From Phycisphaerae bacterium (GTDB lineage: Bacteria > Planctomycetota > Phycisphaerae > Phycisphaerales > SM1A02): 64,000 bases of DNA. Within the stretch, counting starts at the first letter, position 1; each line of letters starts with the position of its first letter. The notes under the pieces are model-generated. The model saw nothing but the letters and a program-made list of their open reading frames with translations, was not told where the DNA came from and ran no database searches. This document shows positions 58,676 to 64,000 of this stretch, one piece after another. Position numbers and translations under genes: made by a program. The stretch is from positions 1 through 64,000 of the forward strand of contig VGXO01000005.1 of assembly GCA_016873275.1 (NCBI GenBank). The letters run 5' to 3'.

Positions 58676-59851
58676 TCAGCCGCTGATCGCCGCGACGCGG
58701 TCGCTCGCGAACTCCCTCGCCTCCTGATCGGCGGCGGCGACCTCCGCGAGCGTCCGGACCGTCCGGGTCGGAAGTCCCGCGAGCGCCTCCGCGACGAGGT
58801 CGGTGATCGCGAGGAAGGGGATGGTTCCGGCGAGGAACGCCTCGACCGCGACCTCGTTCGCCGCGTTGAGCACGGCGCCGCTCGAGCCGCCGCGCCGGAT
58901 CACCTCCGCGGCCAGCCGAAGCGCCGGGAAGCGGTCGTGATCGACTTGCTCGAACTCGAGTCCGCGGAGCCGGGTCCAATCGAGCCGGTCGGCGCAGCCC
59001 TCGACGCGGTCGGGCCAGGTGAGGGCGAGCTGGATCGGCAGCTTCATGTCCGGCGGCGAGAGCTGGGCGATCACCGAGCCGTCCACGAACTCGGCGAGAC
59101 CGTGCACGATCGACTGGGGATGGACGATCGCCTCGATGCGGTCCGCGCCGAGGCCGAAGAGCCATCGTGCCTCGACGAGCTCGAGCGCCTTGTTCATCAG
59201 GCTGGCGCTGTCGATGGTGACCTTGCGACCCATGCGCCAGGTGGGGTGCGCGAGGGCGTCCGCGATCGTCGCCTCCCGCAGCCGTGCGGCGGGCCAGGTC
59301 CGGAAGGGACCGCCCGACGCGGTCAGCACGACGCGGCGCACCTCCTGGCTTCCGTGACCCGCGAGCAGGCACTGGAAGAGGGCGCTGTGCTCGCTGTCGA
59401 CGGGAAGGATCGTTCCTCCTCGGGCGGCGACCTCGGCCATGACGATCTCGCCGGCGGCGACGAGGGTCTCCTTGTTCGCGAGCGCGATGGTCGCGCCGCG
59501 CCGGATCGCGGCGAGGGTCGGCTCGAGTCCGGCGGCGCCGACCATGGCGCCCATCACCACGTCGCCTGGCTCGACGAAACGCTCGATGATCTCGATCGCC
59601 GCGTCCGGTCCCGCGTGCACCGCGCGACCGCTCCGGGAGATCGCCGCGGCACCGTCGCCATCGACGAGCCCGAGCGCCCGCGGACGATGCCGCTCCGCCT
59701 GCTCGGCGAGGAGCGACGCGTTGCGACCGGCGACGAGGGCGACGACCTCGTACCGAGGACCGCCCGCCTCGGCGAGGTGCTCGATCACGCGGAGCGTGTT
59801 CGTGCCGATCGAGCCGGTCGAGCCGAGGATGATGATGCGCCGAGCCGACAT
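58676..59851 (-). CDS. ispC: 1-deoxy-D-xylulose 5-phosphate reductoisomerase
   Basis: 391 residues. NADPH motif ILGSTGSIGTNTL, then ALANKETLVAAGE, metal/substrate PVDSEHSALFQCL, LTASGGPFR, HPTWRMGRKVTIDSASLMNKALE and VLNAANEVAVEAFL. It catalyses the committed step of the MEP isoprenoid pathway in the cytoplasm. Motifs and length are normal. It lies 22 bp downstream of the RNase E/G gene on the same strand. Confidence 0.96.
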   Translation of the reverse strand: MSARRIIILGSTGSIGTNTLRVIEHLAEAGGPRYEVVALVAGRNASLLAEQAERHRPRALGLVDGDGAAAISRSGRAVHAGPDAAIEIIERFVEPGDVVMGAMVGAAGLEPTLAAIRRGATIALANKETLVAAGEIVMAEVAARGGTILPVDSEHSALFQCLLAGHGSQEVRRVVLTASGGPFRTWPAARLREATIADALAHPTWRMGRKVTIDSASLMNKALELVEARWLFGLGADRIEAIVHPQSIVHGLAEFVDGSVIAQLSPPDMKLPIQLALTWPDRVEGCADRLDWTRLRGLEFEQVDHDRFPALRLAAEVIRRGGSSGAVLNAANEVAVEAFLAGTIPFLAITDLVAEALAGLPTRTVRTLAEVAAADQEAREFASDRVAAISG

Positions 59852-59873: not shown

Positions 59874-62660
59874 TCAGCGGTCGTCCGACCGCAGCGCCGC
59901 GGGATTGATCTTCCGGCTTCGCCCGCCGGCGTAGAGCGCGCGGGGGCGAGGGGGTCCGCCGCCGGAGGTCTGCGAGCCCGCGGGCGCTGCAGGGTCGACG
60001 GTCGACTGGGAAGACGGGGAGCTCGGCGGTGCCTGCGAAGCCGCGACTTCTCCGCCGTCGCCGCCCGAGGTCGTGCCGTCGGCGCCCTCGCGACCGCCGC
60101 GTCCGCGACGACCACGCCGCCGCCGCCGCCGCCGACCACGACGCGGCTCGCCATCGCCGCCCTCGCCGCCGTCGCCCCCGTCAGCGGTGCGATCCTGATC
60201 CGACTCGCTTGCGGGACCATCGTCCTCGGAGTCCTCGGCGCCGGCGCCGCGACCGTCCTGCTCGCCAGCCTCCTCGCCGTCGTCGCTTGACGCGTGGTCG
60301 TGGGAGATCGTCTCGACGAGCGGGGCACCGTCCGCGCCGCCCTCGCCCGACGGTGGCGCGAGGGGAGCGCCGTCGGGACCTCGTCCGCGACCACGTCCGC
60401 CGCGCCGGCGGCGTCGGCGACGGCGACGACGCGGCTCGCCATCCGGTCCGAGCAGCGGCTCTCCGTCGGCGAGCTCGTCGGTCGAGGCAGACGTCGCGGT
60501 CGCGGTCTCGACGGCGGGCGCGGGAGGCGCGAACCACGAGCGGATCCGGGCGAGGTCCTCGCCCGAGACCGTGCTCATCGCCGCCTTCACGGTGAGGAGA
60601 CCCTCGGCGACGCAGCGGTCGATGATGTCCTTGCTGGCGACGCCGAACTCCTTCGCGAGCAGGTGCACCCGCGTGGGTCCCTCGTCGACCGGCGGCGGCG
60701 GCGGCGGTGGCGTCGGCGGCGCCACGGCGACCTCGCCCGGCTCGCCCGCTTGACCGCCACCCTCGACTCCACGACCACGTCCACGACGGCGACGGCGACG
60801 ACGTCTGCGGCGACCGCCTCCCTCGCCAGCCTCGTCCGATCCCGCCGCGGCGGCGGTCGCCTCGGCGCCCTCCTCCGAGTCCGCCTCATCGGCGAGCTCG
60901 CCAGGCACCACGTCGCCGTCCTCCTCGGGAAGCGGCTCGAAGCCACCCGCAAGGGCGATCGCGGCGGCATCGGCCGGACCGGGCTTCCGTCGTCGACGGC
61001 GCCGCCCTCGCGAGCTCGATTCCTCGTCCAGCTCCTCCTCCGCCTCGCCCTCTGGCGCCGGCGGCGGCGCCGCGGTGGGCAGGTCGGCGATCGCCGGCAT
61101 CGGGAGCGCCGGCAGCCGGTCGATCTCGACGTCCGCGTTGCGGTCGTCATAGGCGTAGACGTCGAATCGATCGATCGCGATCGCCTCGGAGATCCGCACG
61201 TCGATCCGCTTGGCGAACGACTCCTCGAGCTCGGCGAGCTGGGCGCGACGCGAGCTCAGGAGGCTCGATGCCACCCGCACCGGGACGACCAGCTCGAGGC
61301 GCTTGATCCGCTCGTGGGCGAGGATGGCGCCGGCGCGGCGCAGGGCGTCGGCGGCGACCGAGTCGGGGAGGCGGATCTCGCCGTGACCGCTGCAGGTCGG
61401 GCAGTCGGAGTAGTGCACCTTGCGGAGGCTCGGCCGCATGCGCTGGCGGGTGATCTCCACGATCCCGAAGTCGCTCACCGGCAGCACGGTGGTGCGGGCA
61501 CGGTCCCTCTTGAAGGCGAGGTTGAACCGCTCCTCGATGTCCTTGCGGTGCTTCGCGCTCCGCATGTCGATCATGTCGCAGACCACGAGCCCGCCGAGGT
61601 CGCGGAGCCGAAGCTGCCGGCAGATCTCCTCGACCGCCTCGCAGTTGGTCTGGTAGGCGTTGGTCTCGCTGTCCCGCGCGGAGCGGCTCTTGCCGCTGTT
61701 CACGTCGATGGCGACGAGCGCCTCCGCCTGGTCGAAGACGAGCGCGCCTCCCGAGGGAAGCGGCACTTCTCGGGCGTGGCTCAGCTCGATCTGCCGCTCC
61801 ACGTCGAAGGCGTGGAAGATCGGCGTCTTGCCGCCGTAGTAGCGGACCGGCGGACTCGAACGTGGCGCGATCACGCCGAGGAAGGTGCTCGCCCGGAGCA
61901 GCGCCGACTCGCTGTCGACGATGATCGCCTGCACCGACCCGTCGAGGACGTCGCGGAGCGTCCGGAGCAGCAGGTCGCTCTCGGTGTAGAGCTCGCACGG
62001 GGCGCCCACCGAGTTCATGCGGCGCTCCATCACCTTCCAGAGCCGCGTGAGGTAGGCGACGTCGCGCGAGAGGTCGGTCTTGGTCGCGGTGAACCCCGCG
62101 GTCCGCACGATGAAGCCGAATCCCTCCGGCAGGGCGAGGGAGTCGAGGATCTTCCGCATCTCCTTCCGCTGGGACTCGTCCTCGACCTTGCGGCTCACCC
62201 CCACCTTGTCCATCCCGGGCATCATCACGAGCAGCCGACCGGGGATCGACAGGTAGCTCGTGAGGGTCGGGCCCTTGGTGCCGAGCCCTTCCTTGAGGAC
62301 CTGCACGAGGATCTCCGACCCGCGACGAAGGGCGTCCTGCATCATCGGTCGGGCGCGGCGGGGGATCTTCTTGCCGACCTTCTCCGTCTTGTCGCCGCCC
62401 GGGAAGTAGCGGGGGTGGAGATCGGAGACGTGGAGGAAGCCGTTCTGTCCCTCGCCGAAGTCGACGAAGGCGGCCTGGATCGCCGGCTCGACGTTGGTGA
62501 CCTTCCCCTTGTAGATGTTGCCGACGTTCGTCGCCGTCGCGACGCGCTCGCTGAAGAGCGCGTCAAGACGGCCGCGGTCGAGGATCGCGATGCGGCATTC
62601 CTCGCCCGGCGTGTCGTTGACGATCATCACGCGGTCGAAGTTCGATGGTTGCTGGCTCAC
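59874..62660 (-). CDS. rne: RNase E/G family ribonuclease with IF2_N-like domain in its tail
   Basis: 928 residues from GTG at 62660, with AAGGAG upstream. The catalytic half (1-500) has the S1 domain (NIYKGKVTNVEPAIQAAFVD), the DNase I-like site with D319 (AIDVNSGKS) and D362 (CDMIDM), and the zinc-link CPTC at 420-423. The tail (~520-928) is disordered, with four Arg-rich blocks (R-x8 to R-x10) near 551, 616, 744 and 840. Between two of them, ~662-712, sits a compact IF2_N-like domain (VHLLAKEFGVASKDIIDRC...). The tail probably binds RNA and degradosome partners; the IF2_N module is unusual. Confidence 0.9.
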   Translation of the reverse strand: MSQQPSNFDRVMIVNDTPGEECRIAILDRGRLDALFSERVATATNVGNIYKGKVTNVEPAIQAAFVDFGEGQNGFLHVSDLHPRYFPGGDKTEKVGKKIPRRARPMMQDALRRGSEILVQVLKEGLGTKGPTLTSYLSIPGRLLVMMPGMDKVGVSRKVEDESQRKEMRKILDSLALPEGFGFIVRTAGFTATKTDLSRDVAYLTRLWKVMERRMNSVGAPCELYTESDLLLRTLRDVLDGSVQAIIVDSESALLRASTFLGVIAPRSSPPVRYYGGKTPIFHAFDVERQIELSHAREVPLPSGGALVFDQAEALVAIDVNSGKSRSARDSETNAYQTNCEAVEEICRQLRLRDLGGLVVCDMIDMRSAKHRKDIEERFNLAFKRDRARTTVLPVSDFGIVEITRQRMRPSLRKVHYSDCPTCSGHGEIRLPDSVAADALRRAGAILAHERIKRLELVVPVRVASSLLSSRRAQLAELEESFAKRIDVRISEAIAIDRFDVYAYDDRNADVEIDRLPALPMPAIADLPTAAPPPAPEGEAEEELDEESSSRGRRRRRRKPGPADAAAIALAGGFEPLPEEDGDVVPGELADEADSEEGAEATAAAAGSDEAGEGGGRRRRRRRRRRGRGRGVEGGGQAGEPGEVAVAPPTPPPPPPPVDEGPTRVHLLAKEFGVASKDIIDRCVAEGLLTVKAAMSTVSGEDLARIRSWFAPPAPAVETATATSASTDELADGEPLLGPDGEPRRRRRRRRRRGGRGRGRGPDGAPLAPPSGEGGADGAPLVETISHDHASSDDGEEAGEQDGRGAGAEDSEDDGPASESDQDRTADGGDGGEGGDGEPRRGRRRRRRRGRRGRGGREGADGTTSGGDGGEVAASQAPPSSPSSQSTVDPAAPAGSQTSGGGPPRPRALYAGGRSRKINPAALRSDDR

Positions 62661-63278: not shown

Positions 63279-64000
63279 TCACTCCGCGGTCCAGCCCCCG
63301 GTCGAGTCGGGGGCGATCGCCCGCAGCTCGTCGCGGAGGGCGTTCAGCACCTGCCGCTCCGACTCGAACGAGCCCACCCGTCGGGCGAGCCGCTCGCACT
63401 GCTCGAGATCGACGAGGCGGACGATCTTCTTGATCTCGGGGATCTGCCCCGGCGTCATCGAGAGGGAACGCAGTCCCATGCCGATCAGGAGCATCGCGTA
63501 GAGCGGCTCGCCCGCGAGCTCGCCGCAGATCGAGACGTCGATCGACTCGCGGCGAGCAGAGCGGACCACCGACTTGACGAGCTGCAGCACCGCGGGGTTC
63601 GCGCCGCTGTAGAGCGGCGCCACCCGCTCGTTGCCGCGGTCGACCGCGAGGACGTACTGGATCAGGTCGTTGGTGCCGATCGAGAAGAAGGAGACCTCGC
63701 GGGCGAACGCCTTCGACATGAGCGCCGCGCTCGGCACCTCGATCATCATGCCGATCGGCAGGTCGGCGCGGAAGGGGACGCCCTCCTCCTCGAGCTCCTC
63801 GATCACGTCGTTCAGGATCATCCGCGCCTGCCGCAGCTCCATCACCGTGGACACCAGCGGGAACATCACCTTCACGGGCCCGTGGACGCTCGCCCGAAGG
63901 ATCGCCCGCAGCTGGGTCTTGAAGAGCGGCTGGTTCTGCAGGCAGTAGCGGATGCTGCGGAGCCCGAGGAATGGATTGCGCTCGGGCTCCTCCGCGCGGA
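63279..64000 (-). CDS. ptsI: PTS enzyme I, C-terminal part
   Basis: The 3' 722 bases of a gene that continues beyond the right edge. Reading inward from the edge gives PERNPFLGLRSIRYCL then KVMFPLVSTVMELRQA, IGMMIEVPSAALM, FFSIGTNDLIQYVLAVDRGN, and SICGELAGEPLYAMLLIGMG, all hallmarks of the PEP-binding TIM barrel of enzyme I. Enzyme I transfers phosphate from PEP to HPr. Since the N-terminal His domain is outside the window, PtsI versus PtsP cannot be settled. Other PEP-utilising enzymes are less likely given these motifs. Confidence 0.9.
   Translation of the reverse strand, partial: RAEEPERNPFLGLRSIRYCLQNQPLFKTQLRAILRASVHGPVKVMFPLVSTVMELRQARMILNDVIEELEEEGVPFRADLPIGMMIEVPSAALMSKAFAREVSFFSIGTNDLIQYVLAVDRGNERVAPLYSGANPAVLQLVKSVVRSARRESIDVSICGELAGEPLYAMLLIGMGLRSLSMTPGQIPEIKKIVRLVDLEQCERLARRVGSFESERQVLNALRDELRAIAPDSTGGWTAE

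Follow-up and report, generated by a model that had tools for sequence, protein, structure and literature searches.

An IF2_N domain in the arginine-rich tail of a planctomycete RNase E/G and its possible link to translation initiation

We analyzed a 64,000-nucleotide stretch of DNA from a Phycisphaerae bacterium (contig VGXO01000005.1, positions 1 to 64,000; referred to here as the window) and found that residues 662-712 of the RNase E/G encoded in it are a genuine IF2_N domain. The sequence, the predicted fold, and the conservation of this module within the family agree with the assignment, and the module has an affinity to the N1 module of the initiation factor IF2. From these observations we infer its origin from IF2 N1, its docking partner, and a consequence for mRNA decay. 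In the reading that we prefer, to which we give a probability of about one half, a copy of IF2 N1 in the RNase E scaffold would dock the enzyme at the 30S subunit or the initiation machinery. An IF2_N domain on RNase E suggests that mRNA decay and translation initiation may be physically linked and bears on the question of how RNase E distinguishes mRNAs that are translated from those that are not; a folded, transplantable 50-residue IF2 docking module makes one answer directly testable.

The RNase E/G gene and its charged tail

The coding sequence has the bounds given in a preliminary description of this DNA and encodes a protein of 928 aa (Table 1). It starts with GTG, with AAGGAG just ahead. 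An RNase_E_G catalytic domain, an S1 domain, and the CPxCxG zinc link identify the protein as an RNase E/G, and a sequence search retrieved relatives of solved structure, including E. coli RNase E. The domain search placed a thioredoxin-like domain at residues 420-501 and detected no GTPase domain in the 928-aa protein, which is thus not an IF2; the true IF2 of this genome is encoded on contig C15. The dxr gene for DXP reductoisomerase (positions 58676-59851 of the window) lies on the same strand and starts ~22 bases past the rne stop, and a PTS enzyme I-like gene (63279-63998) lies upstream of rne. The three genes probably form one operon.

Table 1. Features of the RNase E/G and of related actinobacterial loci (coordinates refer to the window)
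Feature	Residues	Position	Strand	Basis or remark
RNase E/G coding sequence		59874..62660	-	PF10150, E 4e-90; TIGR00757, 451.8 bits; CPxCxG and DVN..D motifs present
S1 RNA-binding domain	45-99	62364..62528	-	PF00575, 33.7 bits
RNase E/G catalytic domain	138-408	61437..62249	-	PF10150, E 4e-90
Arginine block 1, RGRRRRRRKP	551-560	60981..61010	-	
Conserved linear motif PADAAAIALAGGF	562-574	60939..60977	-	Island of conservation within the genus
Arginine block 2, GRRRRRRRRRRGRGRGV	616-632	60765..60815	-	
IF2_N module	662-712	60525..60677	-	PF04760, PDB sequence profile, structure model and comparison, family conservation
Arginine block 3, PRRRRRRRRRRGGRGRGR	743-760	60381..60434	-	
Arginine block 4, PRRGRRRRRRRGRRGRGGR	839-857	60090..60146	-	
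Conserved C-terminal linear motif RPRALYAGGRSRKINPAALRS	905-925	59886..59948	-	Occurs with or without the IF2_N module
Actinobacterial RNase E with N-terminal IF2_N-like module (loci L153, L221-L233)				NCBIfam NF052588 RnaseEMycob, positions 22-67

From about residue 520, the protein continues as a charged tail. Its four arginine blocks flank the IF2_N module, with blocks 1 and 2 before it and blocks 3 and 4 after it. The preliminary description had proposed an IF2_N-like domain at about residues 662-712 between Arg-rich blocks, and both the position of the blocks and the Pfam score of the segment, which exceeds the cut-off, bear this out. This arginine-rich C-terminal scaffold is probably disordered. 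In a table published in 2011, Planctomycetes RNase E/G proteins measure 509-588 aa and are without degradosome potential (PMC3071783); a 928-aa RNase E with an IF2_N-bearing tail revises that table.

Besides the IF2_N module, the tail contains two conserved linear motifs. One, PADAxAIALAGGF, lies between arginine blocks 1 and 2 and was detected in 30 of 66 RNase Es of the family and in 0 of 33 outside the family. It looks like a degradosome-type partner-binding motif. The other, at the extreme C-terminus, has the form (K/R)PRxLYxxxRRKLSPAE and was found order-wide, even in RNase Es without IF2_N. The LY..R-type ending recurred in RNase Es of the family and of the order, including those that lack IF2_N.

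Identity, conservation, and origin of the module

When searched alone against Pfam IF2_N (cut-off, 25.3 bits), the segment scored 28.3-28.4 bits (E 1.4e-6). The score was 26.8 bits in a whole-genome scan, also above the cut-off, and 21.7 bits, below it, when the whole RNase E/G protein was used. All 51 aligned module sequences (the window and 50 relatives) matched IF2_N, the best with an E-value of 3.7e-15. A single-sequence search of the PDB with the segment returned a chance match only and a profile was needed; the joint profile of the 51 modules matched Thermus IF2 with an E-value of 2e-11, with nothing comparable below. A module HMM gave 67.6 bits on the real tail and at most 2.5 bits on 2,000 shuffled tails. 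Since the window's own sequence went into the seed of this HMM, the Pfam result serves as the independent evidence.

An AlphaFold2 model computed from the 51 sequences (pLDDT 80.8) consisted of a strand followed by three helices in a helix-turn-helix (HTH)-like arrangement; as a predicted model, it has the three helices and the small beta element of the IF2_N fold. The model was compared with solved structures by VIA-align, and IF2 N-domains ranked at the top: 9a4o with a Z-score of 7.6, the T. thermophilus 4b3x type with ~7, and 7uiu, in which IF2 N2 is bound to 30S, with 6.9 at 1.9 A. These values, all below 8, are modest, as expected at 50 residues. Lower rows, with Z-scores of 4-6, contained further DNA-binding domains of the HTH type (pSK1 Par, RacA, and the MerR family). 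Foldseek gave 1.2-1.3 A over ~50 residues to 4b3x/4b43; its E-values for the 59-residue model were all above 0.1, and the VIA-align Z-scores and the rmsd were therefore used instead. The HMM search and the structure comparison, both proposed as checks in the preliminary description, thus came out in its favor, with a significant IF2_N match and an HTH-like predicted fold that is closest, among solved structures, to IF2 N-domains. We rejected as extremely improbable the reading that the resemblance arose by chance, or that the segment is a generic HTH and not an IF2_N homologue. Although the whole-protein Pfam score fell under the gathering cut-off and MerR-like HTHs occur lower in the structure list, all 51 members matched IF2_N, the PDB profile matched no protein other than IF2, and the RNase E modules share signatures with IF2 that are lineage-specific.

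The module is constrained, but less so than the catalytic core of the enzyme. Sequence identity was ~0.52-0.70 in the module versus 0.15-0.38 in most adjacent linkers, and pN/pS between the window and two congeners was 0.40-0.43 in the module, 0.19-0.24 in the catalytic core, and 0.77-0.79 in the distal tail. In an alignment made by eye, the best-kept part of the module was the turn that aligns beside the h16-contacting residues of 7UIU. Among the RNase E modules, A669 was conserved in 100%, S676 in 96%, K/R677 in 95%, and K/R670 in 93%. In the genus of the window, the NHMS motif is replaced by AAMS (VKAAMS), in which NH is lost; the His of this motif was kept in 82% of RNase E modules and in nearly all IF2s of the class. 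Because of this replacement, the window represents a somewhat divergent member, and part of its module surface differs.

We then consider the relationship of the module to IF2. An HMM of the RNase E module scored 46-72 bits on the N1 modules of Phycisphaerae IF2s (54-72 bits for all but one); this full range occurred in the family of the window, with 56-62 bits in the same order and class. It scored 28-54 bits on IF2s of other planctomycete families and 25 bits on one actinobacterial IF2, and the N2 module of IF2 was barely detected. Of the RNase E modules, 29 of 55 end in W[F/Y]; the ending was seen in all 25 IF2s of the class and in none of 25 other planctomycete IF2s. Taken together, the HMM scores, the shared ending, and the faint detection of N2 suggest that the RNase E module likely derives from N1 of the IF2 of its own lineage. 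In a tree of 106 module rows, which like the other module trees rests on 50-51 columns and has many poorly supported forks, the RNase E modules did not form one clade, and one clade was not rejected (AU p 0.4).

Distribution in Planctomycetota and Actinomycetota

The survey covered Planctomycetota, one actinobacterial order, and ~40 genomes from across Actinomycetota. Within the GTDB family of the window, the RNase E tail was inspected in one representative per genus (45 genera). The IF2_N module was present in 36 of these and absent in eight; in L083, the sequence stops at the contig end. The module-less RNase Es (L070, L074, L078, L086, L094, L107, L109, and L110) retained the arginine blocks. 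Because eight genera do without it, the module is not essential to RNase E function. These genera are natural controls for the function of the module.

In the tree of catalytic domains, all module carriers fell into one clade (SH-aLRT 93) with the module-less rows of the family nested inside, and the sister clade of 27 was entirely without the module. The module was found in none of 20 long-ORF RNase E loci of other planctomycete families, two families of the same order included. When 79 planctomycete genomes were scanned with the module profile, only the genome of the window gave two matches; each other matching genome gave one, and the ORF lengths of these single matches mostly fit IF2. One gain of the RNase E module followed by several losses appears to be the simplest and best-fitting reading of these trees and counts.

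The NCBIfam model of mycobacterial RNase E matched the window segment weakly, which led us to Actinomycetota. In one actinobacterial order, an IF2_N-like module precedes the arginine blocks of RNase E and lies close to the N-terminus of the protein. Two of the RNase E candidates (L240 and L242) have two IF2_N-like modules in the N-terminal extension. RNase E identity in the actinobacterial loci was assigned in part by motif and, since some loci end early, otherwise by architecture and alignment; the label "mycobacterial" denotes similarity to the NCBIfam model. The statement in the preliminary description that IF2_N modules normally occur at the N-terminus of IF2 therefore needs amending, as many actinobacterial RNase Es also carry one. 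All 16 aligned actinobacterial segments matched IF2_N (best E 3.5e-13), and the planctomycete and actinobacterial RNase E module profiles matched each other with an hhalign probability of 98.7. The AlphaFold2 model of the actinobacterial module had the same order of elements, and the single-sequence query that retrieved these modules also detected IF2 in the genomes concerned.

In a joint tree, a split with support of 100/97 placed the actinobacterial RNase E and IF2 modules on one side and the planctomycete modules on the other. Constraining all RNase E modules together was 31 log-likelihood units worse and was not formally rejected (AU p = 0.056); a single origin of all of them is disfavored by these sequence comparisons. 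The split and the opposite position in the protein favor two acquisitions, and the actinobacterial RNase E probably acquired IF2_N independently of the planctomycete one. This second, apparently independent gain argues that a link between mRNA decay and initiation is useful. In mycobacterial work, residues 2-145 of M. smegmatis RNase E were deleted (PMC10641625); the deletion probably removes the IF2_N module, without comment there.

Possible docking partners and comparison with known systems

In our preferred reading, the RNase E of this family would have gained an N1 (IF2_N) copy from the IF2 of its own lineage, placed within an arginine-rich scaffold. The HTH face of the module (L-A-K-E..S-K/R-E/D) would contact the surface used by IF2 N modules, most likely helix h16 of 16S rRNA at the 30S shoulder, and the flanking arginine blocks may grip rRNA or mRNA nonspecifically. 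Docking would hold the nuclease beside 30S subunits or initiation complexes. There, it could cleave mRNAs on which initiation fails, or it could vie with IF2 for the binding site. In P. aeruginosa, IF2 N2 sits on h16 of 16S rRNA at the 30S shoulder, and the contact is made by Ser277-Val278-Lys279 in the turn between two helices (PMC9192638). In E. coli, the recognition core of the degradosome scaffold, the site of basic RNA-binding segments, binds 30S (PMC7613265), and mRNA in 30S initiation complexes is a target of degradosome cleavage (PMC12820379). These precedents, together with the conserved turn of the module, favor docking at 30S, and the tether to ribosomes or initiation complexes put forward in the preliminary description is plausible. 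Against 30S docking, the module is N1-like, whereas the pseudomonad h16 contact is made by N2 and N1 of E. coli binds NusA.

Because E. coli IF2 N1 binds NusA, the partner of the module could be the transcription machinery. The module would then dock RNase E on NusA, and hence on RNA polymerase, and tie decay to nascent transcripts and not to 30S. Residues 1-50 of E. coli IF2, which form N1, can be cross-linked with NusA, the predicted site being KH2/AR1 (PMC12297416), and the RNase E module resembles N1. In the genome of the window, nusA adjoins infB, and a ~60-residue region past the KH domains of NusA reads like a helix-hairpin-helix. However, this region had no AR-repeat match in Pfam, NCBIfam, or the PDB, and the IF2 N-terminus and the NusA C-terminus are both not conserved according to PMC12297416. 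We regard NusA docking as a serious rival to 30S docking and, on balance, as unlikely.

It is also unlikely that the module acts as a small, generic binder of RNA or protein within an arginine-rich, condensate-forming scaffold of the BR-body type, with no specific initiation partner. The tail is arginine-rich and repetitive, the arginine blocks are kept in related RNase Es without the module, and loss of the module is tolerated in the family. Nevertheless, conservation of the module far from matched by that of its linkers, retention of the IF2-like turn, and acquisition of the same domain type in a second phylum argue for a more specific role.

RNase E processes rRNA, and the module could instead serve the processing and quality control of rRNA by tethering the enzyme to precursor 16S rRNA or immature 30S subunits, not to initiation complexes. 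This possibility, which overlaps with 30S docking, would agree with the contact between IF2 N modules and h16 (PMC9192638) and with a contribution of IF2 to ribosome assembly (PMC6511846). RNase E lacks the module in many lineages, however, and we consider the rRNA role rather improbable.

With regard to both phyla, we tentatively propose, at odds that we place below even, that an IF2 docking module was copied onto RNase E independently in two unrelated phyla, at opposite ends of the enzyme, and that this main nuclease of mRNA decay either competes with IF2 or succeeds it where IF2 docks on the initiating 30S subunit (or on NusA). If true, mRNA decay would have an evolved and dedicated checkpoint at translation initiation. 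No description of IF2_N in RNase E was found in the open-access literature searched; the combination of IF2_N and RNase E may already be listed in domain databases that are compiled automatically.

Compared with the N1, N/G1, and N2 modules of IF2 (PF04760; 4b3x, 7uiu, and 9a4o), the RNase E module is alike in sequence family, predicted fold, and the LAKEL..SKE turn, and the W-F ending is also common to it and the IF2s of the class. Unlike those modules, it is located inside a C-terminal nuclease scaffold, not ahead of a GTPase. The protein resembles the E. coli RNase E degradosome scaffold in its order of parts, a catalytic core and then a long charged tail, and in the arginine-rich RNA-binding segments and short conserved motifs of that tail; it differs in that the E. 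coli scaffold, to our knowledge, has short linear motifs but lacks a folded IF2_N domain. With the actinobacterial RNase Es it shares the same enzyme and the same added domain family, but there the module is N-terminal and followed by the arginine blocks, sometimes occurs in two copies, and resembles N1 of actinobacterial IF2.
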